Shown here: positions 3,660 through 42,519 of the stretch, piece after piece | Position numbering within the stretch: the stretch's first letter is position 1 | Layout: each line of letters opens with the position of its first letter | Source: a virus | IMG/VR virus record: IMGVR_UViG_3300029957_000016 | Coordinates: 1-42,519 of that record | Length of the DNA: 42,519 bases | Direction: 5' to 3' (one strand) | Position numbers and translations under genes: made by a program | The notes under the pieces: generated by a model | Seen by the model: the letters and a program-made list of their open reading frames with translations, nothing else | The model's database searches: none | Told to the model about the DNA's origin: nothing

Positions 3660-3732
3660 CGCAGGGTGGACCAATGGTTAAGTCGCCGGCCTCATACACC
3701 GGAACTTGTGGGTTCGATTCCCACCCCTGCAA
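3660..3732 (+). tRNA. tRNA-Met-type (anticodon CAT), initiator-like features
   Basis: 73 bases fold as a cloverleaf. Acceptor 3660-3666 pairs with 3725-3731 except C1 x A72; U8 is present. The D stem is GAC/GTC with A11-U24 and a GG in the loop. Anticodon stem 3686-3690/3698-3702 has loop CTCATAC (anticodon 3693-3695). The T arm is GTGGG-TTCGATT-CCCAC. The discriminator is A and CCA is not encoded. C1xA72 and A11-U24 are bacterial initiator hallmarks, but the last anticodon-stem pair is C x A rather than G-C, so elongator Met or lysidine-Ile is not excluded. Confidence 0.85.
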
Positions 3733-3775
3733 CCCTCGAAAGTTGGTAGGTCGTAAAAAACCAGGAGGTTGTGAA

Positions 3776-5329: not shown

Positions 5330-5686
5330 ATGGCCGAACCGTGGATCCCGGGATACCAGACGCGACTGGCCATCGCCAAAGCCTTGAAAAATGTGACCAC
5401 CGGCCCCCAAGGGCCTCCCGGTGCAACGGGTGCCGCTGGGCCGACTGGCCCAACCGGGCCCGCGGGCGGAACGCTGGTAAAAGGGTTGGCCACCTTGGTC
5501 GCCGGCGCGGTGACGGTGACCGCCCCAACCGTCACGGCCGTGAGTTACATAAAAATTTACCCGCAGAACGACGGGTGCGCCGGGGTCTGCTACCCGGCCA
5601 ACATCGTGGTCGGTGTGGGATTCGACATCAAGTCGACCAACCCTTGGGACATCGGCACCGTGTTGTGGGAAATTCAAGAACCCTGA
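5330..5686 (+). CDS. Collagen-like tail-associated protein
   Basis: 118 residues. Residues about 25-46 are seven Gly-X-Y triplets (GPQGPPGATG and onward), a collagen triple-helix seed. The C-terminal ~60 residues resemble the trimeric beta tip of phage fibres (VTVTAPTVTA; DIKSTN; VLWEIQEP). Such proteins form thin trimeric stalks that carry a receptor-binding tip. There is no signal peptide, unlike the neighbours, so it may be a virion fibre. Start ATG 5330 follows the protease stop by four bases. Confidence 0.75.
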   Translation: MAEPWIPGYQTRLAIAKALKNVTTGPQGPPGATGAAGPTGPTGPAGGTLVKGLATLVAGAVTVTAPTVTAVSYIKIYPQNDGCAGVCYPANIVVGVGFDIKSTNPWDIGTVLWEIQEP

Positions 5687-5697
5687 AGGGGGACGTC

Positions 5698-6795
5698 GTG
5701 AGAAAAATCATTGCTGTCACGCTGGGCGCCCTGCTGGTTTGGTTCGTGTGGGTTTGCGCCCGGGCCGTCACGCCCCCGCTTCAAATGGTGCCCTATGCCG
5801 TTATCGGCACGAACACGATTGTCCCGTGGAATACGCCAGTTCCCCAAAGCACTTTTCCGCCCCAGATCACCCCACCACCGTATTTTACGGCGGTACCTCA
5901 AAACACGTTTCCTACTGGACTAATTGCCTATCCGAACCTTTCCCAAACACCGACCGCCGTCCCAACATCAATCACACCCGTGAGTGTTGTACCCGTGAGT
6001 ACGTGGTACTTGGGCGTGTTCACGGCGACTAATACACCTACCGGCACGTTGACGCCTGCGTTGGTGGCCAACGTGGTACCTCAATATACATTTGTGCCTC
6101 AGTTCACTCAGATTCCGGTCTCCGCTGCGTTTACGCAGATACCCGTGAACGCGTGGCCTACGCAGGCTCCGCAGTTCACGTTTCCACCACAGTTTGTGGC
6201 GTTACCGTGTTTGTCGGTTACGCCCACCCCAATCGTTGCCCCTGCCCAGTTTACACAGGTATTTCCGTACCCGACAGACCAGATCGTACACTTCACGGCG
6301 GCGCAACCCATGTCTCTGACAAACCCGGTCGCCCAATTCACCCAAGCAGTTCCTGCGGCCCAGTTCACGCAGATCGTTCCAGCTGTGCAATTTACTCAAG
6401 TCTTCCCCTACCCCACAGCCCAAATATCAACGCTTGGTGCCGGAACGGCACTTGCTGGGTACTTCGGCCCCTACGCCATATCGGGGAACAAAGCCACATC
6501 CGCCACAGGAATGAGTGTGACGCTTATCAATACGGCCCAATACCCCATGAAGTCCTGGAGTGTCGGGATTACCACGATTGGTGGAACCGGGGCCGTGACA
6601 GCCGCCGTGTACCTTGCCGTAAACAAGACGTATTCAGCCTTCATCTCGGTGGGGGCCGTGAGTATGACGGGTGGGGCCAGCGCTGTTACAAGCGTTACCG
6701 GAGTATCGACATGGCCATTCATGGATGCCGGAGTGTCGATTTTGGGCACCGCCGCCTCCACGACAATAACGACGTATTTGCTGGGGATGCAGTAA
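5698..6795 (+). CDS. Secreted QFTQ-repeat protein
   Basis: 365 residues from GTG 5698 with AAGGGGGA just upstream. Residues 1-22 are a Sec signal peptide. Residues ~40-240 are Pro/Thr/Gln-rich with degenerate units such as VPQFTQIP, AQFTQVFPYPT, AQFTQAVPA, AQFTQIVPA and VQFTQVFPYPT. Residues ~255-365 are Gly/Ala/Thr/Val-rich beta sequence without cysteines, probably a folded tip. No enzyme motif is visible. It ends the exported block just before a terminator. It could be a surface stalk or an adhesin-like fibre. Confidence 0.65.
   Translation: MRKIIAVTLGALLVWFVWVCARAVTPPLQMVPYAVIGTNTIVPWNTPVPQSTFPPQITPPPYFTAVPQNTFPTGLIAYPNLSQTPTAVPTSITPVSVVPVSTWYLGVFTATNTPTGTLTPALVANVVPQYTFVPQFTQIPVSAAFTQIPVNAWPTQAPQFTFPPQFVALPCLSVTPTPIVAPAQFTQVFPYPTDQIVHFTAAQPMSLTNPVAQFTQAVPAAQFTQIVPAVQFTQVFPYPTAQISTLGAGTALAGYFGPYAISGNKATSATGMSVTLINTAQYPMKSWSVGITTIGGTGAVTAAVYLAVNKTYSAFISVGAVSMTGGASAVTSVTGVSTWPFMDAGVSILGTAASTTITTYLLGMQ
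6117..6416 (+). repeat. Degenerate QFTQ peptide repeat region
   Basis: Coding repeats of 27-36 bases with the core Gln-Phe-Thr-Gln followed by hydrophobic-x-Pro. Two copies (6244-6283 and 6388-6420) both extend to FPYPT. Codons vary between copies (CAGTTCACG, CAATTTACT, CAGTTTACA), so selection appears to act on the peptide. Confidence 0.65.
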
Positions 6796-6912: not shown

Positions 6913-6945
6913 GGCCTCGGTCCCCCGGACTGGGGCCTTTTTATT
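6913..6945 (+). terminator. Intrinsic terminator closing the exported block
   Basis: An 11-bp stem (6913-6923 with 6927-6937, two wobbles) and CCC loop is followed by TTTTTATT. It lies about 120 bases after the last gene of the block. The stretch 6796-6912 has no credible gene. Confidence 0.85.
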
Positions 6946-7130: not shown

Positions 7131-7277
7131 ATGGTCTTGATCCGTGAGAATGGGGTAGTGCTGGTGGAAAGCAACAACGGCGTGGTTGCCCTGGACCTGG
7201 ACGCTGCGCGCCCGATGCCCGCCACCCAGCGCCAGGTCGACGAGCATTTCGAGTTTATTCAAACCTGTAGCCGATAA
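7131..7277 (+). CDS. Small protein of unknown function (48 aa)
   Basis: ATG 7131 follows AAGGGGG (7118-7124). The product begins MVLIRENGVVLVES and has balanced charge. It matches no family I know. It is the first gene downstream of the AT-rich control region, so it is likely early expressed. Confidence 0.55.
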   Translation: MVLIRENGVVLVESNNGVVALDLDAARPMPATQRQVDEHFEFIQTCSR

Positions 7278-7302
7278 CCAGCTAACCCCGGAGGTGTGCC
7301 GT

Positions 7303-7671
7303 ATGGGACCTGCGAAAAAGTACCTCGCGACGAAAGAAGGCAAGTGCATCATTTGCCACGGAACCATCCGTCTGAACGACGAAATCCGCTTTATCAAGAA
7401 CGAATCCGGCACCCGCCGGGCCCATGTGGTCGGCAAATGCCCACCTCACGTGACCACCCGAGAGGACGCCAAGCCGGCTATCCCCACCCACTCAAACGGT
7501 CCCATCCACAAGATGGACCCCAAACCCGGACCTGTCATGACCCCGCGGGTGGACATCCACACCCTCGGCCAGACGATTTCCCGCTTGACCCTCGAGCTGA
7601 TGGAAGTCCGCACCCAGATCCAAACCCTTGAGATCCAGCAGGCCCTCGACGAAGCCCAAGGGAGGGGCTAA
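7303..7671 (+). CDS. Small protein with CxxC zinc-knuckle-like N-terminus
   Basis: 122 residues from ATG 7303 behind GGAGGTG (7290-7296). Residues 14-17 are CIIC and a further Cys-Pro-Pro-His lies near residue 45, so a single Cys2-CysHis zinc site is possible. Residues ~85-120 are an amphipathic helix (LGQTISRLTLELMEVRTQIQTLEIQQ), likely a coiled coil for dimerisation. Function unknown; nucleic-acid binding is a guess. Confidence 0.65.
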   Translation: MGPAKKYLATKEGKCIICHGTIRLNDEIRFIKNESGTRRAHVVGKCPPHVTTREDAKPAIPTHSNGPIHKMDPKPGPVMTPRVDIHTLGQTISRLTLELMEVRTQIQTLEIQQALDEAQGRG

Positions 7672-7674
7672 CCC

Positions 7675-7899
7675 ATGCCCAAGCCCTATAAATTCGTTGT
7701 GACATACCGTTTGCCCGATGGCCGTCAGGACTGCCTCGTTGTCTACGCCAAAACCCAGGAATCATCGTGGCACCTGGGCCAAGCCATCGCGGCCGACCTC
7801 GAACGGGTGGACCTGTCGGATGTGGCCATCGTGGCCTGCGCCCTCGTTTCGGTCTTTCCTCGACTGGAACGCGACGGCTTGGTGGAGGCTTCACATTGA
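7675..7899 (+). CDS. Small protein of unknown function (74 aa)
   Basis: ATG 7675 with GGGAGGGG (7659-7666). The sequence has an alpha/beta feel: FVVTYRLPDG, CLVVYAKTQ, then a helix LGQAIAADLERV and a VAIVACALV strand. No family is recognised. Its stop overlaps the next start (TTGA). Confidence 0.6.
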   Translation: MPKPYKFVVTYRLPDGRQDCLVVYAKTQESSWHLGQAIAADLERVDLSDVAIVACALVSVFPRLERDGLVEASH

Positions 7900-8162
7900 A
7901 GAAAGACCCCAATCGTAGTACCCTGGCCCCGCTTACCACCCCACCCGGCGAGGCCGCTGTGCCGCCATCTAAAGGCAAGACCCGACGCATCGGGCCTTTC
8001 AACATCGCCGAACACCTGGTTAATTGGGCCATTGATTACGTCGGTACCAACAAGCGGCGGTACAAGACCGAAATTGAAGCCCAAGAGGCAGGACACACCA
8101 GAACCATGGCCACCGTCATAGAGCGGGCCCTCGCTTTGTACAAGGAAAAGCACAACAAATAA
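7896..8162 (+). CDS. Small basic protein of unknown function (88 aa)
   Basis: TTG 7896 overlaps the upstream TGA and follows GGTGGAGG at good distance. The N-terminal 35 residues are Pro-rich and look disordered. The C-terminal half is a basic helix pair (KRRYKTEIEAQEAGHT and TMATVIERALALYKEKH), suggestive of a small DNA-binding or adaptor fold. It immediately precedes the recombinase gene, so an excisionase or directionality role is possible but unproven. Confidence 0.6.
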   Translation: MKKDPNRSTLAPLTTPPGEAAVPPSKGKTRRIGPFNIAEHLVNWAIDYVGTNKRRYKTEIEAQEAGHTRTMATVIERALALYKEKHNK

Positions 8163-8176
8163 CGGCATTTAGTCCT

Positions 8177-8206
8177 AAAATCACTGCGTCTTTATGCAGT
8201 CATTTT
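8177..8206 (+). promoter_or_regulatory. Inverted repeat before the recombinase gene
   Basis: AAAATcACTGC (8177-8187) pairs with GCAGTcATTTT (8196-8206): ten of eleven pairs around an 8-base loop. Near-perfect symmetry and flanking A/T runs allow either a bidirectional terminator or an operator for the recombinase gene at 8219. Recombinase binding is also possible. Confidence 0.6.
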
Positions 8207-8218
8207 GAGGGCTAAACA

Positions 8219-9262
8219 ATGCCACATTCACTTCTTGTCGCCAACACCATTCTCAGAATGGGAGGTCCCATGGCCCCCGGGGTGAAGGCCGCCTTTGAAC
8301 GGGCGGACCTGTTCAACCTCGAACCATACGCCGGTTACTTGGCTTCCCGAAGGAATCCAACCACGGCGAAGGGCTACCAAGACAAACTTAGGTGGCTTCA
8401 CCTCTACCTGACGACGAGAGGGTTAGCGTTTTCCGAAATTCGCGGGAAACACCTGGTGGACTTCATGACCTGGATGAAGACCAAATATTCAGCCAGATCC
8501 CTGATGGTCCTGATGTACGCGGTAAGCGGGCTTTTTAAATTTATGGTGATGACCGAGCAACTGGACCGGGACCCCTCGAGGGTGTTGACAACCCTGGGTT
8601 ACCGCCAACCCAAGCCGAACCCGCGGCCCCTGGATCGGGCGATCGAGGAAAAGCTGTTGATGAGCCTGCGGTGGAGCACCTTTGAGGACTCGCGCCAAAG
8701 CCTGGTGGTACTCTTGGGGTTGCACGAAGGGCTACGCCGCGCCGAAATCTGTGGGATTAAATGGGCGGACTTGGACTTTGACGGCGGCCTGCTGGTGGAT
8801 GGGAAGTGGGTGGCCACTGGGATGGTGCGGGTGACGGGGAAGGGCGATAAAACCCGGCGCCTGCCGATGACCCTGTCGGTACGGACGGCCTTGAACGAGT
8901 TTCTGATCCGGTACAAGATGCACTTTCACGGGTTGTTCGTGGACGACTGCCGCAACGAATACCTTTTCAGATCGTCTAGGGTTTACGTGCGGGGGGACCT
9001 GGTGCCGGGTCACTCGGGGATCGAGCGGTTGTTTTGGCTGGCCAAGGCCCGGGCGAGGTTGAACCAAGAACCGTTCACCCTTCATAGCCTTCGCCACACC
9101 TACTTGACCCGCCTGGTCGAAGCTGGCGCTAACGCCTACGAGGTGCGGGACCTGGCCGGGCATGAGTCAATCGAAACTTCGGAAAGCTACGTGAGAGTGA
9201 CGGAACGGGCCGGGCACCTGGCCCACATGAGGACCTTCGAAAAGAAAGTGGTGGGGGTGTAG
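8219..9262 (+). CDS. int: Tyrosine recombinase / integrase
   Basis: 347 residues from ATG 8219; ATG 8270 is an alternative start. Residues ~30-120 are a SAM-like core-binding domain (TAKGYQDKLRWLHLYL). The catalytic domain carries every expected residue: Arg173 in GLRRAE, Lys211 in GKGDKTR, His289-x-x-Arg292 in HSLRHTYL, His315 in LAGHES and the nucleophile Tyr324 in SESYVRV. It would integrate and excise phage DNA or resolve dimers. Length and lack of an arm-binding N-domain make it XerC/D-like rather than lambda-like, so simple recombination sites are plausible. No attP core can be identified from one genome alone. Confidence 0.92.
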   Translation: MPHSLLVANTILRMGGPMAPGVKAAFERADLFNLEPYAGYLASRRNPTTAKGYQDKLRWLHLYLTTRGLAFSEIRGKHLVDFMTWMKTKYSARSLMVLMYAVSGLFKFMVMTEQLDRDPSRVLTTLGYRQPKPNPRPLDRAIEEKLLMSLRWSTFEDSRQSLVVLLGLHEGLRRAEICGIKWADLDFDGGLLVDGKWVATGMVRVTGKGDKTRRLPMTLSVRTALNEFLIRYKMHFHGLFVDDCRNEYLFRSSRVYVRGDLVPGHSGIERLFWLAKARARLNQEPFTLHSLRHTYLTRLVEAGANAYEVRDLAGHESIETSESYVRVTERAGHLAHMRTFEKKVVGV

Positions 9263-9264
9263 GG

Positions 9265-9450
9265 ATGATTCAAAGCGCAAGTTGGGACCCAAGTGGGAAG
9301 TATCTGGTAACCGTCGATCTGGCGGTCGATGGTGAGGACAAGACCATAAGGCTGACGTGGTTCATGAACCAAATGGGTCGGTTGGTGTGCGTGAACCATC
9401 CTATCGCGTTCATGATTGCCAGTGGTTGGCCGGTCGAGGCATTCATCTGA
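9265..9450 (+). CDS. Small protein of unknown function (61 aa)
   Basis: ATG 9265 directly after the recombinase stop, with GTGGGGGTG upstream. The sequence begins MIQSASWDPSGKYLVTVDL and ends IASGWPVEAFI, largely beta-like. No family is recognised. Confidence 0.55.
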   Translation: MIQSASWDPSGKYLVTVDLAVDGEDKTIRLTWFMNQMGRLVCVNHPIAFMIASGWPVEAFI

Positions 9451-9461
9451 GGGAGGGTAAG

Positions 9462-9791
9462 ATGAAATCAAAAGACTGGCGTGAATTGGCCCGAGATCGA
9501 AACATTGAATTTTCAAGACTCATCAACACTCAATCCATACCTGCCGCCACAAGAATCCGGCAAATTTGGAGCGATGTGTTGGCCAAACACTTTGAAGAAA
9601 CCCACGGCCACTGGATGGGGTGGGAAGAACCGGTTGCTCTTAAAGACCACATGGACGGTGTCGCGCCCGCCTGGAACATCGAACGGTATCAACGGTCACA
9701 GGCCATCAAGTTGATGGCTGAAGGGCTTATCGGGATGACCAACGCCGCAAGTGACTTCATGGATTTAAAACCTTTTACACTGAATAAATAA
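9462..9791 (+). CDS. Protein of unknown function (109 aa)
   Basis: ATG 9462 follows GGGAGGG (9451-9457). The product is mostly helical (DWRELARDRNIEFSRLI; RQIWSDVLAKHFEE; QAIKLMAEGLIGMTNAASDFM). No known family. It is the last gene before the promoter and RNA cassette. Confidence 0.6.
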   Translation: MKSKDWRELARDRNIEFSRLINTQSIPAATRIRQIWSDVLAKHFEETHGHWMGWEEPVALKDHMDGVAPAWNIERYQRSQAIKLMAEGLIGMTNAASDFMDLKPFTLNK

Positions 9792-9824
9792 CGTTTTCTA
9801 CCACAACCCAAAGTAGGCTAGAAT
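9791..9824 (+). promoter_or_regulatory. Promoter of the RNA cassette
   Basis: TTCTAC (9796-9801), 17-base spacer, TAGAAT (9819-9824), preceded by ACGTTTT. Spacing from the ACGTTTT element to the -10 equals that of the promoters near 23070 and 41760, so it belongs to the same set, though its -35 is weaker. The expected start is about 9831. Confidence 0.6.
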
Positions 9825-9830
9825 CATGTC

Positions 9831-9947
9831 AACTACAAAAACGGCGAAGAAATGGCCCCCTGAAACAGGATTCGGCTTACGGCCCGCTTCCACCAATTTT
9901 CGGGTTTATAAAGGGTCCTCGAGAAATCGGGGGCCTTTTCTTTTTTT
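9831..9947 (+). ncRNA. Putative small RNA 1
   Basis: About 115 bases from the predicted start to an intrinsic terminator. Inside, GAAG/CTTC and GGCC/GGCC can enclose a CCTG-aaa-CAGG hairpin (about 9847-9890). An open frame exists from ATG 9826, but that ATG sits two bases after the -10 and the frame runs through both terminators, so translation is unlikely. Candidate roles are an antisense or antitermination RNA. Confidence 0.5.
9914..9947 (+). terminator. Intrinsic terminator 1 of the RNA cassette
   Basis: A 9-bp stem 9914-9922/9927-9935 with a GAAA tetraloop, then TTTTCTTTTTTT. It is a strong Rho-independent terminator only about 100 bases after a promoter. Confidence 0.85.
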
Positions 9948-9950
9948 AGA

Positions 9951-10070
9951 GCCCCCACAACAGGCCACTCGCGGGGGCCAGCACTTGAAGCCTTTGGTAA
10001 GCCAAAGCAACGGGAAAACCGACCCACTCCGCGAGAGTGGGGCTTTGGCTTATCAGAGGCTTTTTTATTT
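9951..10070 (+). ncRNA. Putative structured RNA 2: three-way junction with terminator
   Basis: A first hairpin pairs GCCCCC (9951-9956) with GGGGGC (9973-9978). Then a 21-bp stem pairs 9988-10008 with 10042-10062, with only two G-U wobbles. It encloses a small CGG-gaaaa-CCG hairpin (10011-10021) and a 7-bp hairpin CCCACTC-cgcga-GAGTGGG (10023-10041) that abuts the long stem. TTTTTT follows at 10061-10066, so the long stem doubles as a terminator. No reading frame explains this symmetry. The stretch 10071-10169 after it shows nothing beyond the SD of the next gene. Confidence 0.6.
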
Positions 10071-10169
10071 CAGGGCGCAGTGGGCCACGCCGATGTCCCT
10101 TGGGGCGGCCTTGTATGGGGGCGGGGGAGTAGAACAGGCCCAGCACGCTCATAAATTCCGGAGGACCAC

Positions 10170-10475
10170 ATGAACCGTCAGATGGTGTCGTTGTTGGCTT
10201 TCGCCAAGGAATTTTTCAACCGGGTTTCGGATCCCGAAACCAAGCACCGATTCGCCACCGGCACCCGCAAGACCCGCCGGCGGATGGCCGAGAATGCCAA
10301 AGGCTGGATGGACCGCCAGAACCGGTTCACGGAACCCACCTTCGACGGGAGATTCACCCAATTCAAGGACGGAACGGTGGACCTGTACCGCCAGCCGGAT
10401 GGGAAGCGGACCCGGGACCTGCGCCCCCGCGGCCGTGGGAAGTATGGGTGGGATCGCGAGAGGGTCACGGCATGA
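10170..10475 (+). CDS. Small basic protein of unknown function (101 aa)
   Basis: ATG 10170 with CCGGAGG (10158-10164). Very Arg/Lys-rich (TGTRKTRRRMAENAKG; GKRTRDLRPRGRGKYGW), suggesting nucleic-acid binding. No family is recognised. It is the first gene after the RNA cassette and overlaps the next by ATGA. Confidence 0.6.
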   Translation: MNRQMVSLLAFAKEFFNRVSDPETKHRFATGTRKTRRRMAENAKGWMDRQNRFTEPTFDGRFTQFKDGTVDLYRQPDGKRTRDLRPRGRGKYGWDRERVTA

Positions 10476-10618
10476 AAATGAAAACAGCTTATGGACTTAT
10501 GAGTGCTGTTTTTATGGGCATGGCCTTTGTGTCTGCGTGGCGCCGGCAACCGATAGATGAAATTAGGATTTTGCTTTGGGCAATCATTTGCCAACTAAAT
10601 GCAATGGAAAAATCATGA
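10472..10618 (+). CDS. Small membrane protein (48 aa)
   Basis: ATG 10472 (ATGA overlap) to TGA 10618. MKMKTAYG leads into a hydrophobic Met/Ala/Val segment of about 17 residues, then RRQPIDEIRILLWAIICQ. It has one clear membrane segment and possibly a second. It is AT-richer than its neighbours. Function unknown. Confidence 0.55.
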   Translation: MKMKTAYGLMSAVFMGMAFVSAWRRQPIDEIRILLWAIICQLNAMEKS

Positions 10619-11232
10619 AGTGGTTTCAACACCGGGGTGATTCCCACGAAGAATTGGGCCTTCAAATCCTGATTGAAAAGTGTGGGATGGAGGGCTACGG
10701 GTTCTATTTTTTCATCAAAGAACGCATCTGCCGCCGCCTCGAAGGCCACCGGGCCACCTTTACCACCGAGGAAGGAATCGCCCGCCTGGCCCAGCGGGGA
10801 AACATCGAGTTGGTGAAGGCCTACCAAATACTTGAGGTTTGCCTGAAACGCCCATCAGAAACCGTCGAACCCCTGTTGGACCTGGAACCCGGGACTGGCC
10901 ACATACGATGCCGCGAAATGCTTTGGGAGTTGGACACCTTCACCGCCACGAACGCCGAAATTGCCAAAATCAGAAAGAACGGCCTTGTTTTGGTGGGGGA
11001 AAGACCAACTTCGAAGTTGCTTCAAAGTGACTTTGAAGCACCTACCAACAGTACCTACCTACAAGACCTACCTAGCTTACCGGGCCTTAGCACGGGCGCC
11101 GCTGGTGGGGATCAGGGCAAGCATTTTCATGATCTCTTTACCGACCACATCAAAAGGGCCCATAAAGGCGAATACGACCCCAACTGCGATGCCTGCAAAC
11201 ACCTGCGCGGGCTGAAGGTGGTGGGCGAATGA
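10615..11232 (+). CDS. Replisome organiser (Lin1244/Lin1753 N-terminal domain family)
   Basis: 205 residues from ATG 10615 (ATGA overlap). Residues 1-90 match the family pattern: MKWFQHRGDSHEELGLQ, then LIEKCGMEGYGFYFFIKE, a winged-helix-like domain found in phage replication initiators. A low-complexity linker (residues ~130-165) follows, then a Cys/His tail (DPNCDACKHLRG) that may bind metal. It should bind the phage origin and recruit host helicase. The linker DNA holds two palindromes and three 13-base iterons, a likely origin inside the initiator gene. No phage polymerase or helicase is present, so host replication proteins are needed. Confidence 0.75.
   Translation: MKWFQHRGDSHEELGLQILIEKCGMEGYGFYFFIKERICRRLEGHRATFTTEEGIARLAQRGNIELVKAYQILEVCLKRPSETVEPLLDLEPGTGHIRCREMLWELDTFTATNAEIAKIRKNGLVLVGERPTSKLLQSDFEAPTNSTYLQDLPSLPGLSTGAAGGDQGKHFHDLFTDHIKRAHKGEYDPNCDACKHLRGLKVVGE
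11006..11078 (+). other. Candidate replication origin: two palindromes plus three iterons
   Basis: CAACTTCGAAGTTG (11006-11019) is a perfect 14-base palindrome. Next, 11018-11040 is an inverted repeat with 11-bp arms (TGCTTCAAAGT/ACTTTGAAGCA) around one base. Then ACCTACC recurs at 11040, 11053 and 11066, exactly 13 bases apart; the second and third share ACCTACCTA. All lie in the linker-coding part of the replisome organiser gene, the position of the origin in lambda gene O and several initiator genes. Confidence 0.6.
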
Positions 11233-11831: not shown

Positions 11832-12278
11832 ATGAACACGACCGACCCGAAACCGGAGGTACCCACCCAGAACCAACTGGTCCTGGCGTACCTGCTGTTA
11901 CACGGGTCGGTCACGCCAGCCGAGGCCAAAAAGGAATGTGGGGATGTAGACCGGTTGGCGGCCCGCATTTGGATTATCAAACAGAAATGGGGATGGCCTG
12001 TCATAAACCCGGGTGAGGAACACGGCGGCGACCATCCGGGCAACCACGCCCGGTACGTCATGGACTGGGGTAAGCCGGCAAGGGACCTGGGTCTGGACCT
12101 ACCCGAGGTTCGGCGCTGGGGGTTTGAGTGGGCCAAGCGGCCTATGGACTTGGGCCCCTACCCCCTGTTTGTGGCGTACCTGAAGGCCCACGCCGCAGTG
12201 CCAAAGCCGAAGACCGACGAACGGACCTGGCGGGAACGATTGGGGCAAACCGAATTGAATTTCATGGGGGTGGCCTGA
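11832..12278 (+). CDS. Helix-turn-helix domain protein
   Basis: 148 residues. Residues ~12-58 fit the small helix-turn-helix family seen in phages: QNQLVLAYLLLHGSVTPAEA, a turn, then VDRLAARIWIIKQKWGWPV. The remaining ~90 residues are unassigned and Pro/Trp-rich. It could be a transcription regulator. It is the only HTH protein here that might act as a lysogeny regulator, apart from TerS. TGATG junction with the next gene. Confidence 0.65.
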   Translation: MNTTDPKPEVPTQNQLVLAYLLLHGSVTPAEAKKECGDVDRLAARIWIIKQKWGWPVINPGEEHGGDHPGNHARYVMDWGKPARDLGLDLPEVRRWGFEWAKRPMDLGPYPLFVAYLKAHAAVPKPKTDERTWRERLGQTELNFMGVA

Positions 12279-17144: not shown

Positions 17145-17459
17145 ATGACGAATGAGGATTTCAGATACTGTACGTACAAATTTACGTTCGGAACGCTTGA
17201 GTGTCAGGTTTCCGGGGTTTCTCCGACCGATGCCGCAGAACTTTTTTTGAACCTGTCCCAAGACGCTTTTCGAGATATTGATAAATTCAACCGAGAAATG
17301 TTTGATAAAAATATGGATCAGCTTAACAAAACGCACAAACATTGCATGGAAATGCTAGAAGAAAACTACACTCGTATGGACCGACTCAGGGAAGAAATCC
17401 AGGCCGAGTGCGAAGCGGAACGGATGCTAGAAAAACAAAAGTTAGAGGTCCACCCATGA
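17145..17459 (+). CDS. Small coiled-coil protein (104 aa)
   Basis: ATG 17145 with AAAGGGGAAG upstream. The N-terminal 40 residues are beta-like (CTYKFTFGTLECQVSG). Residues ~45-100 are a continuous charged helix (KFNREMFDKNMDQLNKTHKH; RMDRLREEIQAECEAERML), probably a coiled coil. Function unknown. Confidence 0.55.
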   Translation: MTNEDFRYCTYKFTFGTLECQVSGVSPTDAAELFLNLSQDAFRDIDKFNREMFDKNMDQLNKTHKHCMEMLEENYTRMDRLREEIQAECEAERMLEKQKLEVHP

Positions 17460-17491
17460 CGCCCCCAACCTCACCCCTGACTGAGGGGCCG
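17453..17491 (+). repeat. 39-base exact direct repeat (second copy 18540-18578)
   Basis: The 39 bases from CCCATGACGC to GAGGGGCCG are identical at 17453-17491 and 18540-18578. Inside is a small inverted repeat CCCCT-gactg-AGGGG. A second near-identical block lies at 17623-17663 versus 18731-18770. Repeats of this type can mediate module exchange. Confidence 0.85.
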
Positions 17492-18527: not shown

Positions 18528-18953
18528 ATGACGAACGAGCCCATGACGCCCCCAACCTCACCCCTGACTGAGGGGCCGTACACCATTCAAATAAGGGCGG
18601 CTTCAGATAGCTACGCCCAAATAATACCGCCAGTAATCACCGGGAACAGAGCCGTCATCCAATGGCCGGTAGACGACGCACAGAACTTCGTGAATAGGTG
18701 TAATTCTTTGGTTGCCCAAGGATTCGCCGAAGGAGTAGCCCACGCCACCGACACCCAGTCGGCAAGGGTGAAGGAATTGGAAGCCGGGTTGAAAGAGATT
18801 GCTCGGTTCATCGTTGCGGGGAATTCGGCCATCACGGACACCATTTGGCATGGGGACGCCGAAACGCTGGTTGACTACATTGGGAACGTGCTTGGGTATG
18901 ACGTTTCCGACCCCACCGAACCTGGACCGACAGATTTGACCAAACCCACTTAA
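18528..18953 (+). CDS. Mosaic small protein B (141 aa), paralogue of 17456 gene
   Basis: ATG 18528; ATG 18543 would start exactly at the shared block MTPPTSPLTEGP. Shares three blocks with the 17456 product (N-terminal block, GVAHATDTQSARVKE, and the PTEPG end) with different sequence between. It is the last early gene before TerS. Confidence 0.55.
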   Translation: MTNEPMTPPTSPLTEGPYTIQIRAASDSYAQIIPPVITGNRAVIQWPVDDAQNFVNRCNSLVAQGFAEGVAHATDTQSARVKELEAGLKEIARFIVAGNSAITDTIWHGDAETLVDYIGNVLGYDVSDPTEPGPTDLTKPT

Positions 18954-20989: not shown

Positions 20990-21030
20990 GGGGCGACGTT
21001 TTTGGAGTATTAAACCGTGGTTATTAGAAT
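20990..21030 (+). promoter_or_regulatory. Late promoter ahead of portal
   Basis: GGGGCGACGTTT (20990-21001) then TTGGAG (21002-21007), 17-base spacer, TAGAAT (21025-21030). The upstream 12 bases match those before the promoters at 23074 and 41761. Only seven bases separate the -10 from the portal ATG at 21037, so any transcript from here is leaderless for portal or serves genes further down. Confidence 0.65.
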
Positions 21031-21036
21031 TAAACC

Positions 21037-22707
21037 ATGGCCGACTCACGGATTGCACTATACCGCAGGTTGTACTCGAACCTGACCCCTTGGCGTAATG
21101 AACGCTTGCCGTTCATGATCGAGGTGGACACGTTCATCTACCCCAACCGGATGCTTAGGACTACTCTCCCCGACCGGGCCCGCCAGCAACTTCGTCAAGA
21201 CACTGAAATTATCACTTCCTTTGCCCGCCTGCGGGCCCGGGACCTGCGGAGCGCCCTGTTATCCGGCATCTGTCCCCAATCCTTTACCTGGCAGTACCTC
21301 TACATCCCGCCCAGCCAAAAGATGGCCGACGGGCAGCCTTATCAGGACAACCCCCAGAATTCCACGTGGCTTTTCACCGAGAACGAGCAACAGTTTTCGG
21401 GCCTTTCCACCTCGAATTTCTACCCCCAATTTGGTGAACACCTGAACGACGCCGCCAATTTTCGGGTGGGTGCCACCCTGATGGAACTCGATTACAAGAC
21501 CACGTCGCGGTACACGACCCTTCGCCCAGGCAGTTACATGCTGGGGTACGACGAATATGGGTATGCAAACCGGATCGCCCGGGATGAAATTTTCAAGCTG
21601 AATGAGCTGGTTTCAAAATTCGGCCTTGAGAACATCAGCCGGCCATTGCAGGAAAAATACAAGGACCCCGGCCATTCCGAGGATGACGTCGCCGTCATCC
21701 ACGTGATCGGGCCCAACGAAATCTTCGACCCCAATGAGCCCCAGTCGAAGTTTAAGAAGTGGTCAAGCTGCTGGTTTGAGGCCGCCACCGACGAGAACCT
21801 GGATAAATTCCTTTGCGAGGAAGGCTTTGACGCCTTCCCGGTCCTGGTCACTGAGTGGCCCGACTGCCCATCCTGGAACGCGATGAGCGACATCAAACAG
21901 CTTTACCGCATGGAACTGGACAAGCTGGAAGCCTCGGAAATGATGATCCGCCCCCCCACCATCGGTCCCCCGACCGTCGCCCGCCGGGCCATCGACAAGA
22001 TGCCCGGTGGTCACACCGAAATCCCCGAGGGCGCCAGCGCCGAGAACTACATCCGCGAACTGTTCCAGAGGAAACTCGACCCCACCCTGCTGGTAAAAAT
22101 TCAGGACGAAACCAAAAAGATCATCGCCGACGCCTATTTCAGCGACACAATCGTGGTCATTTCCAACCTGGCCGAGCAGGCCGGTCACCGAACCGCCTAC
22201 GAAATATCCCAGATCAAGGCCGAGCAGTTGATGAAATTCGGCCCGGTTACCCAGTCTTTCAGCCACACCCTCGACTGCCACGAAGACCTGCTTTTCATGT
22301 TCAGGATGAAATTGAACATCGTGCCCCAACTTCCGCCAAGCCTTGGGGGGGCCGTCTTCAAACCCGATTATGTTTCGGTCCTGAGCCAAGCCCAGAAAAT
22401 GAGCAGTCTTCAGGCGGCCAAGGATCTGATCACCGAGGCCGGGTCAATCTTTCAACAGGGTTATCAGGACATTTGGGACAAGATCAACCCCGAGAAAATT
22501 TTGCAGGACATGGTTGAAAAGTACCGCCTGGATCCGGCCTACCTTCGGTCGGATGAGGCCGTGGCGGCCTTGCGCCAGGCCCGCCAGGCTTCCCAACAAC
22601 AACTTCAAGCCGCCCAATCCGCCAGCCTCCAAGCCAAGTCGGCCCAGGCCTTGGGATCCACCCCGGCCAACGCCGATAGTCTGTTGGCCCAGATGGTCCA
22701 GAAGTGA
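21037..22707 (+). CDS. Portal / head-tail connector protein
   Basis: 556 residues, the size of podovirus T7/BPP-1-type connectors. N-terminal RIALYRRLYSNLTPWRNERL leads into a helical wing region. A conserved central block (DAANFRVGATLMELD; LRPGSYMLGYDEYG) is followed by a stem region with PPTIGPP, PGGHTEIPEGASAENYIREL and SQIKAEQLMKFGP. The C-terminal 40 residues are Gln/Ala-rich barrel-like helix. It forms the dodecameric DNA gate. ATG 21037 lacks a clear SD. Confidence 0.88.
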   Translation: MADSRIALYRRLYSNLTPWRNERLPFMIEVDTFIYPNRMLRTTLPDRARQQLRQDTEIITSFARLRARDLRSALLSGICPQSFTWQYLYIPPSQKMADGQPYQDNPQNSTWLFTENEQQFSGLSTSNFYPQFGEHLNDAANFRVGATLMELDYKTTSRYTTLRPGSYMLGYDEYGYANRIARDEIFKLNELVSKFGLENISRPLQEKYKDPGHSEDDVAVIHVIGPNEIFDPNEPQSKFKKWSSCWFEAATDENLDKFLCEEGFDAFPVLVTEWPDCPSWNAMSDIKQLYRMELDKLEASEMMIRPPTIGPPTVARRAIDKMPGGHTEIPEGASAENYIRELFQRKLDPTLLVKIQDETKKIIADAYFSDTIVVISNLAEQAGHRTAYEISQIKAEQLMKFGPVTQSFSHTLDCHEDLLFMFRMKLNIVPQLPPSLGGAVFKPDYVSVLSQAQKMSSLQAAKDLITEAGSIFQQGYQDIWDKINPEKILQDMVEKYRLDPAYLRSDEAVAALRQARQASQQQLQAAQSASLQAKSAQALGSTPANADSLLAQMVQK

Positions 22708-32841: not shown

Positions 32842-35800
32842 ATGCCCGAACCCAACCCATACCTCGATGTTGCCAAGCAGATGGCCACCACCCCGGCCGC
32901 GCCCGCGGCCCCGCCGACCCCGGCCGGCGCACCCGCCAACCCGTACCTGGATGTGGCGTCCCAGATGGCCCAGGACCAAAGCAGCCGTTTGGCTGGGGTT
33001 GGGATGGCGGCCGCCGGGATCACCCCCGACACCGCCGCCAAGACGCTGGACCTGTCCGATAAGACTGGGATGGACAAGGACCTGGTGGGCCGAAACCTGG
33101 ACCAGATCAATGCCCAGTTGAAACAGCAGACCGACCAAAACACCCTGTCACAAATTCAGACCACCCACCCCGCCACGGCCTCTTGGATGGGCGAACACCC
33201 GGCCAACGTCGCCGCTGCCATGCCGGACCTGGACAAAGCCAAGGCAATTGAGTCCACGGCCCAGGACCTGGGGTTTTGGAAGTACGTGGGGATGTCCGCC
33301 GCCCACGGCGCCGCGGGGCTGGTGAAGTCTTTCGCCAACGTCCCGGCCCTGGCAGACACTATTTTTAAGGGTGTCACGGGTGAAGACGTCATGCAAAAGG
33401 CCGATGGCACGACCATCAACCTGGCTGATAACCCAATTTCAAAGTGGGCCGAAGCCCATCAGGTGAAGATGCAGGTGCCCGAACTGGACGCCAACGCCCT
33501 CGCCGTCATCAAAACCGGTAATGTCAGTAATATCACCCGCACCCTGGCCATGAAGGCCTCCAATATGGTCCCTATGATTGGGGCGATGATGGCGACGGGA
33601 CCGGCGGCTCTTTTTGGCACCCAGATGGCTTCAGACGCCAGTGCCGAAGGCAACCTGCAGGGCCTCGACCCAACCAAAAACGCCCTCAACTCAGTAGGCC
33701 AAGGCCTCATTGGCGCCGCAGTCTCATACCTACGTTTCGGACCCTTTGAAGCCTGGGGCAAGGCCCTCGCCGAATCGCTCGGGAAAGACAGTGCCCAAAA
33801 GATCATCGGGGATGTGGCCAAGCACCTCGTCTATTCGTCGGCCACCGGGTACCCCCAGATGGCCCTCCAATCGGTCGCCAGCGATGTCACCAGCTACGCC
33901 ACCGGCGCCAATCCCAATGCCCTTCAAGGAATGGCCGGACGTGCCAATGCCGCCGGCGTTGAAGGGGCCCTTGTGAACCCCATAATCGCACCCCTCGGTA
34001 TGGCTGGCCACACCCTGGGCCGGTCGATGGAACTTTCGCGGATGAACTCGGACACCGTTGCAGCCGAGGCCCACCGCGATGCCTTCACCAAGATCGCCGA
34101 CAACTTCCAAGAAATGGACCTGGCTAAGAAAGCCCCGGCGGCCGCCGAGCAACTTCTGGCCAAGCAGGTTCAGGGCACCCCGGCCGAAACCACCTATGTC
34201 GACCCTAAGTTTTTCGAAAGCTATTGCCAGTCCAAGAACATCCTGCCGGACGAAATGGCCAAGGACCTAGGTGTCACCCTGGATGAATCACGCCAGACGG
34301 GCGGTTATATCGAGGTGCCCACCTCGAAGTTTGTGGCCACCATGGCCAAAGACGGTCACCTAAACGCCTTCAAAGACCACGTTTCATTCGACCCCCAGGT
34401 CGAAACCTACGCCCAAACCTCCCAACGGGTCACCGAGGCCCACCGGGTCGCGACCGCCCAGGCCGACCAACCGGCCCCCGCGCCCGGATCCCCCGAGGCC
34501 GCCAAGTCGGCCCAGCAGATCGAGGACCAACTGCGGATGGCCGGGCGTACCAAAGCCGAGGCTCAGGCTGGCAAATCTATCTGGGAAAAATGGCTTAACC
34601 GCCGTTCGGATATAACCAAAAAATCCGTGGGAGACCTGACGAACTCAATGGGTCTCAAAATCACCCATGAAGGTGGCACGACGACCCCGGAGGCATGGAC
34701 GCCCTTGACGGGCCTCGATCGTGGACCTGGGCCAGAGTACGCCGCCAAGATGTACAAGCAGGGAACGGACCAACCCGAGAAGCAGTACCGGGACCCCAAC
34801 ACCGGCACCCTGAACGCCCGGGCCTGGACCGAACTGGAAAAGAACCCGCCGGCCGACAAACCTTTCGTGGCCCATATTTCGGTTGAAGGTGGGAAGTATG
34901 TCAACGACACCGAGGGCGGTGGCCACAAGGCCGGCAACGACCTCTACAAGTACGCCGGTCAGGCCCTCATGGGCGCCTCGCCGGACGTCGCCAAGGTGGG
35001 CGGGGACTTCGCCGTCAGGGTTAAGGACCAGGCGGACCTGGACGCCATCCTCCAAAAGGCCAACGACGCCATGCCTGAAAAGGCGCAGTTGGGAGAAAAA
35101 ACTGTCAACGGCAAAGCCTTCAATCTAACCGGCGCAATCGGTGATAACCTCGAATCGGCCAAAGACGCCCATGTGGCCGTGAAGCAAGGTCTTGAAACAT
35201 CTGGTGAGCGGTCCATTCGTGGGGCCATGCCCAAGAAGTATGCCGAATACAACAACGTCGAAGCCACACCCCCCGGTGAGGCCAAACGGGCCATCCCTGA
35301 AGGGCTGCGCCAGGCGGCCGCCAAACTCGGGCCCGAGAAGGGTTTTCAGCAGGCCTATCTGGATCCCACCTTTAGCGATGAAACCCACCCGGTCTATTCC
35401 AAAGACGGCTACGACGCCCTGCCCAAACGGGCCGCCCGGTCGATGGGGGACATGAACGACCTGAAGAAGATCAACGACACCTTCAACACGGGTGTTGGCG
35501 ATTACGCCATCCGGCACCTCATGGAAACCATGAAAAAGGTGGCCGCTGAAATCAATGCAAGCAACGGCCACGAAATAGATTTGGCACACCTGTCAGGGGA
35601 CGAACTCGCGTCCCAAGCCGACGACGGGGTCCTCTTGCATCAATTTTATGACGAGGTGGCCGCACGACTTAAAGCCGAACCACTCGAATTCACAATTGAT
35701 GGCAAAGATGCCAAATTAGATGTATCATTTTCTTCAGGGATAGGAGGCAACGATGCCCTCGCCGAAGACCGACTCCGAACAGCAAAATCAAAATCCCGAC

Positions 35801-38800
35801 TCCCTGCCGAGCCCGGGGACGCCCGAGTTTCTAGCGTTGCCGCTGGAAACGAGGATAAAACAAATGCCACCGCGGATGGACTTCGGGAACCTGCCCCTGT
35901 ACTTCAAGAAGGGGGAGATCGGGCCGAGCAACTTCAAGTCCCACGGAGTGACCGAAGATCCGTCGTTGAGTCCGGCACAAACATCCGCAAAGAGACAAGC
36001 CTTTATGGCGAAAAGATGGGGGCCTACAAACCCGAAGTAAGCGGCGCCGAGCGCGACCGGATCGAACGCAAAGCCTGGAATGACTCACCCATCGGTATCA
36101 TGCGGACCCCCGGCAAGACCATCTACCTGTCGCTTCCTGAACCTTCCCGCCTAAAAGTTGGTGAACACCGCGCCTGGGATGACCAGGTGAAACGAGCCAA
36201 GTCTGACGGCGTACCGGTCGTCACCAAGCCTGACCCACGCGGTAAAACCCCCAGCCAACTCGCATCCCTTTTCATGGACCGCTGGCGCGAGGGAAGCCTG
36301 CACGACCACAAACTGCTCCGCGACATCGACCACGAAACCAAAGGTGGCACCGAGAACAGCCCTGACGCCCAGATCGACAACCTGCTCGATTACTTCAGCG
36401 ACTTTCGTGGGCACAACGCCAAAGAGTATATGGACATGGCCCGGGCCGAAGGACCTGCGGCCGTCAAGCGCAAGATGGGGGGCATGGCGGCTGGGTATGA
36501 GAACCTGAATCAGAGTTACAACCAGCCTGCTTACCACGGTTCACCCCATGTCTTTGACAAATTCAGCTTGCAGAAGATAGGGTCCGGCGAGGGTGCCCAG
36601 GCATATGGGTGGGGGCTTTACTTTGCGGGGAAAAAGGGTATTGCCGAATATTACAGAAATACGCTTTCCGCCAATGACATGACCATCGATGGCCACAATT
36701 TTGCACCCCGCAATTCTAATATCACCGAAATAGTTGGCAATGGTCGTGGTGATCTAAATAAAATTAAAAAGGATTTGGCCGACTATATTGATGAATACGG
36801 CGGTCAAAAACACAATCCGTATGCGATGGTTGAAGATGCCAGGGAAATAATTAATTCAATAAACAATAAGACATTTAAGGCACCCAAAAAAGGCAAGGTT
36901 TATGAAGCGGACATCCCTGAAGAAAACACGATGATTTACTGGGATAAGCCCCTTTCAAAACAACCCGAAAAAGTAAAGAAAGCACTTGAGGATGCTGGTT
37001 TTTCGGTTAATAAATATGAGAACAAACCAGGGCAAATAACAATAAGCAAGTTAGATGCTAAATATCAAAACGGAAACATTGGATATTATGTTTATTTAAA
37101 TCACGATTATTATCACACCTTAGAAATCCCGTCATCTGAAAAAGATCCTCAGACATACGCTGAAAAATGGTTTGAGAAACATCAGAATGATATAAATGAA
37201 AATAGTTTTACCGGAAAAGAAATTTACAATTTAATTTCAGATGCCCAAGGAGGACCCGAAGAAGCATCAAAATATTTAAGCAAGAATTATGGTATTACTG
37301 GTATTAAATACCTCGATAACCAATCGCGTTCCAAGGGCGAAGGCACCCACAACTATGTTGTCTTCGACGATAAACTGGTTCAGATAACCCATACCTATGA
37401 CCAATCATCCAAGAACGGCCCCGAACCCCTCGGCCGCACGGTTTTCGGCCCCGATGGCGCCCACATCCAACTCGGGCCCGGCGCCGATAAGTCCACCTTC
37501 TTCCACGAAACCGGCCACGTCTGGCTTCATGAATTCGCCCTCGATCACGGGTACATCCGCGGCCTGGATCCGAAGGACGTCACCCCCGACCAGAAGCAGT
37601 TTTTGGAAGACGGCGATACCCTGCTGAAATGGCTTGGTATCAAGACCTTTGACGATCTGCCTGGTAATACGGATGCGAATGAAAAGTTTGCCGTGGCCGC
37701 CGAGAAATATTTCACCACTGGGGAAGCCCCCACCACTGGCCTGCGCCACACGTTCGAACAGTTGAAGACCTGGTTATTGGGTAAGTATAAGACCCTGAAG
37801 AACATCACCGATCGAGGCACCCCGGTGGACCTGTCCCCTGAAATCAAAGGGGTTATGGACCGCCTGCTGGCCTCGGACGCCGAAATCAAACAGGCTGAAA
37901 CCCAGCGGACCAGCGGGATGGACAACGAGTTGTCGGCCCAGATGAGCCCCGAACATCTAGCCGAATACAAGAAGGTCAGGGCCGAGGCCGATTCAAAGGC
38001 CAACCAAGACCTGGCCGAACAGCGGGCAGCCGTGGAAGCCAAGCGGAACAGCCCCGAGTGGACCGCCCGCCGCGCCGCCCTGGAAAAGGAATCCCGGCAA
38101 GAACTTGAAAAGCGCCCCGAATACGCCATCCAAGCCAAGATGACCGCCAACGGGATGTACTTCAACCGGGATGAGATACCCGCGGACCTGGTGGACCGGA
38201 TCCCCCTGCACCTGATCGGGGTGGGGGATGAAGGCATTTCGCCGGATGTCGCTGCCGACACCCTGGGTATGGCCTCGGGCGCGGACCTGTTGAAGGCCAT
38301 CGCCGATGCCCGCCCGATCCAAGAAGTGGCCGCCAACCTCGCCGACGCCCGGTTGGGTAAGGAAGCCCCGGACCTGTTCGGTCAGCCCTACGAAGCCCAG
38401 GCGGCCGCCATGAAGGCCACCCACAACGACACCCGGGTAAAGCAGACCATCCTGCAAGCCGAGCAGATGCGCCGCCAGGCCGAGGCTGCCCCCCAAAGCG
38501 GCGAGAAGGGCCAAGACCTCAAACTACCCCACCCCCAAGCCCTCAAGGACATGGCCGAGAAAATCCTGGGGTCGGTCAAAGCCGCCGCCATCAACCCGGA
38601 CAAGTACCTCGCCGCCGAAATGCGAGCCGCCCGAAATGCAGGCCGCCAGCAGGCCATGGGCGACCACGTGGGGGCCTTCAACCATATTGTCATGCAACTG
38701 CGTAACCAAGAACTCTACCGCCAAGCCCTTGAGGCCAAAGACTTCAGGCAAAAGGCCCTAAAGGACTTCGACAAATTCCACGGGACAGATGACAAGATCA

Positions 38801-41256: not shown

Positions 41257-41688
41257 TTATTGTGGAAGCGGCGGCAAGGATGAATCGAGCGGAACCTCGA
41301 ATAACGGATCGAGGTACTTCTCAAGGTTTGAAATGATGGTTTTTTCGTCGTCCTTGCCATCCATTTCAATGACCTCTTTTCCGCTTCGCCGGTCGAACAT
41401 ATTGACCTGATACCAAAACCATCCCGCCTCATTAGTCGCCTGCACCTGCACCCGCATCCCGTAATGGATCTGGATTTGGCCAACCACTGTCCCTGGGTCA
41501 GTTGCAAAAACCCGCCAACCCATCACCCGCAATTTGTCCTTGATGGGTTCTTCAAGGGCCGTGCCCTGGGGTGGGACCACGATGGACCTGTCCGTCTTAT
41601 CGGCCACGATGAAGGTGCGGACGTTCGACCCGGGAGCCGCACACCCTCCAACCAAAAGACCCATCACCAGCAGAATCGAATATTTCAT
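41257..41688 (-). CDS. Lipoprotein, minus strand (moron-like)
   Basis: 143 residues, the only minus-strand gene. Start ATG at 41688 with AGGGG upstream. MKYSILLVMGLLVGGC is a lipoprotein signal with lipobox VGGC and cleavage before Cys. Residue +2 is Ala, which favours the outer membrane. The mature part is mixed alpha/beta (TFIVADKTDRSIVVPP; LRVMGWRVFATDPG; IQIHYGMRVQVQ; WFWYQVNMFDRRSG). It converges with the giant gene with no gap. Phage lipoproteins with their own promoter often block superinfection or alter host surface, as T5 Llp does; that role is inference. Confidence 0.82.
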   Translation of the reverse strand: MKYSILLVMGLLVGGCAAPGSNVRTFIVADKTDRSIVVPPQGTALEEPIKDKLRVMGWRVFATDPGTVVGQIQIHYGMRVQVQATNEAGWFWYQVNMFDRRSGKEVIEMDGKDDEKTIISNLEKYLDPLFEVPLDSSLPPLPQ

Positions 41689-41817: not shown

Positions 41818-42519
41818 TTGAAGAAATTCGCGTTTTTTGCGGCCTTGATCCTCTGCCTTTCGCCCTCGTTCGCGGCGACCACCCAGAACATCAACATCCA
41901 GTCTGGCACCGGCCTGTCCAACACCGGGACCGTGCTTTACATCCCCACCGCCCAGATGACCCTGGTGCCCAACCCAGTGGTCTACGGCCCGGTCAAAGGC
42001 CTGATCTGGCGCAGCGATGTTTACACCAACCCCTTCCAGCCCCAGGCCAACCCCGAGTTGGTGACTATTCTCTACAAGTCGACCGGCAATTCGGTGACCC
42101 TCTTGACCCGCACCGGCCAGTATTGGAACGCCGGCAAGGGAAACAGTATCCAGGTGACCGTGGGTGGACCAACAGTGACGCTTACACCAACGCCAAACCG
42201 AACGGTACAGTCTTATACCCCCACGCCCACCAGGACAAATACGCCTCAGTTTACCTTCACATTCACGCTCACGGGTTCGGCCACTCCGACAATTACCCCG
42301 ACGCCTGCAATAATCCAAGCGGGAGCATTGACCGTTTCCACCCCCGGCGTTCTTACGGTCACAGGTATCAGCAATCTGGACGCCTGGGACATCGGCTCGG
42401 TCTCCGACGTCCCCATGATCGTCCTCATCGGTGAGTCCACAATGGTGGGCCCGGGCGGTGGTGGAGGCCCTGGGATTGACGGATACCTGACTCCTACACC
42501 TTACAACGGTCGTGCGGTG
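41818..42519 (+). CDS. Secreted SGNH hydrolase, 5' part (continues at position 1)
   Basis: TTG 41818 with AGGAGGGTG (41805-41813). The first 19 residues are a Sec signal peptide (KKFAFFAALILCLSPSFA). A ~90-residue beta-rich domain follows (IQSGTGLSNTGTVLYIP; LIWRSDVYTNPF), then a Thr/Pro linker (TLTPTPNRT, SYTPTPTRTNTP). From 42319 the sequence repeats window bases 1-201 including the catalytic GES. The N-terminal beta domain resembles none I can name and may anchor the enzyme. The terminal copy differs at 42446 (Val instead of Ala after STM). Confidence 0.8.
   Translation, partial: MKKFAFFAALILCLSPSFAATTQNINIQSGTGLSNTGTVLYIPTAQMTLVPNPVVYGPVKGLIWRSDVYTNPFQPQANPELVTILYKSTGNSVTLLTRTGQYWNAGKGNSIQVTVGGPTVTLTPTPNRTVQSYTPTPTRTNTPQFTFTFTLTGSATPTITPTPAIIQAGALTVSTPGVLTVTGISNLDAWDIGSVSDVPMIVLIGESTMVGPGGGGGPGIDGYLTPTPYNGRAV
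42319..42519 (+). repeat. Terminal direct repeat (copy 2)
   Basis: Second copy of window bases 1-201 with one difference, T42446 for C128. It implies a unit length of 42318 bases. Confidence 0.9.

Follow-up and report, generated by a model that had tools for sequence, protein, structure and literature searches.

A predicted promoter, leader RNA and tandem terminators between the integrase and replication modules of a phage genome

Between the integrase module and the replication genes of this phage lies a cassette that carries two strong terminators, and the question is whether it controls the genes behind it or only closes the module before it. The window, that is, the whole stretch of DNA that was analysed, consists of one virus record, 42,519 bases long. 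Its ends carry a nearly exact repeat of 201 bases (1-201 and 42319-42519), in which one position or more differs (128 versus 42446), and a 556-codon open frame crosses the joined ends; from the repeat and this frame, the genome is probably complete. The repeat may be either a terminal redundancy or an assembly overlap of a mixed population. Judged by its portal, tail and capsid proteins, the phage belongs, at a distance, with the epsilon15-like podoviruses. The + strand holds all called genes except one, and the arrangement of the modules and of the cassette is listed in Table 1. The stop codon of the last gene of the integrase module ends on the first base of the predicted promoter, P9791. 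We found that the cassette is best described as one transcription unit, consisting of one promoter, a leader and the tandem terminators T1 and T2.

Table 1. Coordinates of the cassette and of the modules around it
Feature	Position	Strand	Details
Late genes	~19 kb to 41 kb, on through the join to ~6.8 kb		From gene call order
Terminator	6913-6937	+	Between late genes and integrase module
Integrase module	7131-9791	+	Followed by the cassette
Last gene of integrase module	9462-9791	+	Codon score +0.17; ribosome-binding site
Predicted promoter P9791	9791-9824	+	ACGTTTTCTAC (-35 region), 17-nt spacer, TAGAAT -10 at 9819-9824
Leader RNA, non-coding	9831-9909	+	Codon score negative
Intrinsic terminator T1	9910-9947	+	13-bp stem 9910-9922/9927-9939, 4-nt loop, U-tract to 9947
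Small hairpin between T1 and T2	9951-9978	+	GCCCCC/GGGGGC, about -14 kcal/mol
Branched intrinsic terminator T2	9987-10066	+	Stem 9987-10008/10042-10063, hairpins 10011-10021 and 10023-10041, U6 10061-10066
Replication and early module	From 10170	+	Downstream of the cassette
First downstream gene, start of replication operon	10170-10475	+	GGAGG ribosome-binding site; codon score +0.28
Second main downstream gene, DUF4373/Lin1244-like replication protein	10609-11232	+	Weak Pfam match; phage homologues annotated DUF4373

Predicted promoter, leader and tandem terminators

The original prediction placed at the head of the cassette a promoter of the phage's own set, and comparison with the other sites showed that P9791 is probably such a promoter. 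Three sites (20996, 23068 and 41755), which precede the portal and protease genes and a right-end gene, define a pattern with the core ACGTTTTTGAC-17-TARAAT, and P9791 fits it with the same spacing at 15 of its 17 positions. When 60 dinucleotide-shuffled genomes were searched on both strands, a single match of at least 15/17 was found. The predicted start of P9791 is at about 9831. The GGGGGCG box that stands upstream of the core at the other three sites is absent here (9783-9790 reads AATAAATA), and the -35 hexamer, TCTACC, is poor, so that P9791 is regarded as probable, not proven. It is the only promoter of the set with a strong terminator behind it. A search for the promoter set in relatives gave nothing convincing.

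The promoters at 20990, 23061 and 41748 share a common block, GGGGCGACGTTTTTG, upstream of TA(A/G)AAT, which may be an activator site; two of them precede structural genes and one precedes the gene of a signal-peptide-like protein. For this combined pattern, IMG/VR gave no exact match. At 20990-21037, no ribosome-binding site is evident for the portal gene, which begins 6 bases past the -10 box of its promoter (TAGAATTAAACCATG); from this arrangement, the portal mRNA is probably leaderless.

As had been predicted, the cassette looks non-coding. Its only long open reading frame, 9826-10173, runs through both terminators with a codon score of -0.10, compared with +0.17 to +0.28 for its neighbours, and a protein-coding reading was rejected on codon use. 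The -10 box of P9791 ends one base ahead of the ATG of this frame, which is too near for a leaderless start.

The strong terminator expected soon after the promoter was found as T1, a hairpin with a long U-tract and a folding energy of -19.1 kcal/mol. The strongest U-tailed terminators of the + strand are those at 6937, 9939 and 10062, two of which lie within the cassette, and together the three flank the integrase module. Both T1 and T2 place a GC-rich RNA hairpin directly before a U-run, as is characteristic of terminator sequences, and we consider both structures to be real and the shape of T2 to be unusual.

For T2, the predicted 21-bp stem around two hairpins with a U-run was confirmed as an outer stem of 22 pairs including G-U (21-nt DNA arms, 19 of 21 positions Watson-Crick), which encloses hairpins of 3 bp and 7 bp and is followed by U6. 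Its fold has an energy of -51.1 kcal/mol and a z of -9.05, equalled by none of 200 shuffles. In a search for inverted repeats with 21-nt arms and at least 19 Watson-Crick pairs, the remainder being G-U, T2 was the only repeat of its quality in 42.5 kb, and 100 shuffled genomes contained none. Folding of the growing RNA showed that the 5' arm first makes a small hairpin, that the two inner hairpins then form, and that in the last step the long stem zips as the 3' arm emerges. At both positions where the 5' arm departs from perfect complementarity, the + strand RNA can form G-U, and the - strand has a C.A mismatch. One proteobacterial plain terminator has the same 3' half as T2, UUAUCAGAGGCUUUUUU, and compared with it the 5' arm of T2 carries two changes, with G-U pairs kept in the + strand RNA. 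Changes of this kind are expected if the + strand RNA matters, and they may hint at selection on the RNA. The covariance model of T2 also picks plain terminators in the sampled genomes, which T2 resembles in its outer stem and U-run. With a 22-bp stem around two hairpins, T2 would offer a useful test of how much departure from a simple stem-loop is tolerated in intrinsic terminators.

No -10-like sequence was found between T1 and T2, where there is only a GC-rich stretch with a small hairpin. Having no promoter of its own, T2 would be transcribed only when polymerase reads through T1 or arrives from the integrase module. The claim of two back-to-back terminated RNAs was thus replaced by that of a single unit with a single promoter.

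We also found that the leader can pair with T1, its bases 9846-9852 and 9854-9860 being complementary to the 3' half and the U-tract of T1 (9929-9935 and 9937-9943). When the RNA was folded at equilibrium from its predicted start, T1 was paired by the segment GAAGAAA-U-GGCCCCC (9846-9860) with a probability of about 0.74-0.87, and the T1 stem itself reached 0.09-0.16; when the fold was begun five bases further upstream, the T1 form was the minimum instead, so the balance between leader and T1 is fine. Pairing as good was reached by 42 of 2000 shuffled leaders (~2%) and by 24 of about 2000 random genome windows, and at these rates the bistability is suggestive at most. While the RNA is being made, T1, as a local hairpin, should be the first to form. 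Competition between the leader and T1, if it takes place, would make this an attenuator. A three-codon frame, AUG-GCC-CCC-UGA (9852-9863), coincides with the T1-pairing segment of the leader; its translation would free T1 if the leader competes, which we note without claiming it.

Searches for homologues and known regulatory elements

Scanning of the whole window with Rfam at the gathering cut-off gave only the tRNA at 3660, and the cassette had no match. The alphaproteobacterial small RNA BjrC68 (RF02353) aligned to 9859-9946 with 23.9 bits, below its cut-off of 39, probably on account of the terminator. A single-sequence covariance search with T2 over 33 sources, 18 related genomes or records and 200 sampled genomes of the phylum returned T2 itself and plain short terminators. 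The exact pattern of the T2 arms was found in viral contigs in eight unrelated hairpins and in no homologue, and a DNA search of phages and plasmids gave no match. Seven proteins were used to seek relatives, namely TerL, portal, tail, integrase, the replication protein and the products of both genes next to the cassette; they gave distant or chance matches only, the best TerL relatives being about 40-45% identical and mostly located in proteobacterial genomes. In none of the collections searched by protein, DNA or structural model was a homologue of the cassette found. The description of the cassette as undescribed therefore applies to the lack of an Rfam match at the cut-offs and of a relative, and not in any wider sense. 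A match of about 52 nt to 10071-10122 recurred in four genomes; in the three loci opened of these four it was antisense to acyl-CoA dehydrogenase-like genes, and it was rejected as chance.

No gene for a Q-type antiterminator was recognised in PHROGs and Pfam scans of the proteins tested, and the Rfam, PHROGs and Pfam scans together revealed nothing recognisable as N, Q or put. Among the proteins scanned, of which not every small one was classified, no CI-like repressor was recognised. The sole minus-strand gene call (41257-41688) was considered as a repressor and rejected, as its sequence reads as a small lipoprotein with the lipobox LVGGC; it is perhaps a lysis or conversion gene.

A proposed gate before the replication operon and its alternatives

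We propose, with a probability of about 0.5, that the cassette is a transcription gate between the integrase and replication modules. Polymerase starting at P9791 would make a leader of about 117 nt and would mostly be stopped at T1, and polymerase that passed T1, or that came from the integrase genes upstream, would be stopped at T2. The replication operon would thereby be shielded and would be expressed by read-through only, for example with an antitermination factor or when T1 is kept from forming. The analysis shows P9791, T1 and T2 at the level of sequence, together with where they lie and how strong they are statistically. In a working gate, P9791 would be used, T1 and T2 would act in vivo and read-through would be regulated. 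We favour the gate because of the position of the cassette between the modules, its share of the strong U-tailed terminators and the lack of a convincing promoter before 10170: between T2 and this gene, a consensus scan gave no promoter and reading of the sequence by eye gave none that convinced. A separate, unrecognised promoter could also drive the replication operon. If the gate is regulated, it would show how replication genes are kept silent in an epsilon15-like phage that has no obvious CI repressor and carries almost all of its genes on the same strand; a terminator pair and nothing more would be an ordinary boundary between modules.

Several known systems resemble the cassette, which we regard as control of a known type whose branched terminator is unusual. 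One precedent is the lambda-type late promoter with a terminated leader, described for a temperate podovirus (PMC7326022) and in a second report (PMC6606751). As in lambda pR'/tR', which is controlled by Q antitermination, a promoter is followed by an intrinsic terminator within 100-200 bases and then by an operon, but here the operon serves replication, a second terminator is present and no Q protein was recognised. In HK022, the put RNA, with two stems and about 70 nt, lies ahead of the terminators and binds the beta' zinc domain of RNA polymerase (PMC9378689); the cassette likewise has a structured RNA near an early promoter with terminators downstream, whereas here a U-run closes the branched structure itself, and in the leader (9831-9909) folding gave no stable put-like two-stem element and Rfam no match at the cut-off. 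In Tn916, replication genes are shielded by an insulator terminator, also named T1, under termination/antitermination control with the cis-acting antiterminator canT (PMC11658703). That element is conjugative, however, and no counterpart of canT was identified here. The P4 CI RNA with seqA/seqC and the Gifsy-1 IsrK combine a promoter, a short terminated RNA and a read-through mRNA, the target in P4 being the replication operon (PMC4825925), but neither a processed RNA nor clear antisense pairing was shown for the cassette. Antitermination is one of the plausible uses of the cassette, though no antiterminator was recognised; a winged-helix protein encoded at 11832-12278 is one candidate among the phage proteins. 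Support for the suggested regulatory RNAs extends to a probable terminated leader from the phage's promoter and no further, and the suggested decoy RNA found nothing in its support.

Plain end-of-operon terminators are a serious rival. Tandem terminators are common at module borders, T1 and T2 come behind the integrase module's last gene, whose strand they share, and the match of P9791 is partial, so it could be fortuitous or weak and the RNA could be without a role of its own. T1, however, lies about 119 nt past the last stop codon, and this gap holds a correctly oriented promoter match of 15/17; we judge this explanation to be rather unlikely, while giving it real weight. We consider it improbable that the 117-nt RNA, with its A-rich 5' end and long U-tail, is a trans-acting phage small RNA for which T2 is a back-up stop. 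Its size, its promoter and the U-rich tail agree with a bacterial small RNA, small RNAs of prophages such as IsrK are known (PMC4825925), and BjrC68 gave a sub-threshold match, though one probably owed to the terminator; leader duplexes with the phage translation starts, on the other hand, were no better than those of shuffles (78/100 as good).

An RNA immunity of the P4 type, in which the leader or a piece of it would pair up- and downstream and force transcription of the replication operon to end early in the lysogen, would agree with the position of the cassette directly before this operon, with the complementary pieces GGCCCCC (9854), GGGGGCC (9929), GCCCCC (9951) and GGGGGC (9973), and with the lack of a recognised CI-like repressor among the scanned proteins. 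All four pieces are short and consist of G and C only, about 2% of shuffles equal the leader pairing, the terminators look constitutive and not every small protein was classified, which leaves this reading very doubtful. There is a similarly slight chance of an RNA-based lysogeny switch in a podovirus without recognisable CI, in which the bistable leader, by pairing with the 3' half and U-tract of T1 or with a terminated copy of itself, would decide whether the replication operon is transcribed, and T2 would serve as backing. An uninterrupted helix of 22 bp, as in T2, is long enough for RNase III, and T2 might chiefly be a processing site or a stabiliser of mRNA ends; U6, however, stands exactly at the position of an intrinsic terminator, and termination and processing are compatible, so we hold a chiefly processing role to be scarcely probable. 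Finally, it is extremely improbable that the inverted repeat is a DNA site, such as the attachment site of the adjacent tyrosine recombinase: the integrase gene lies about 700 bp upstream, but two arm pairs are G-U and so are present in the + strand RNA only, and 385 sampled genomes of the class gave chance matches only, a sample in which a true attachment site could be missed.

Other features of the genome

Outside the cassette, a phage-borne tRNA-Met (CAU) lies at 3660-3734 amid the late genes, and a single gene of 2,804 codons (32842-41256) was found in this 42.5-kb podovirus genome. Repetitive Pro-/Thr-rich proteins with FTQ and PTPT motifs are encoded at 5686-6795 and 41818-42519, the latter with a signal-peptide-like start; such proteins are unusual for phages and may hint at the host. 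In the early region, an exact direct repeat of 39 bp occurs at 17453-17491 and 18540-18578, spaced 1,087 bases apart, and it is adjoined by a 76-nt repeat of 76% identity (17612 and 18720), pointing to a partial duplication there.
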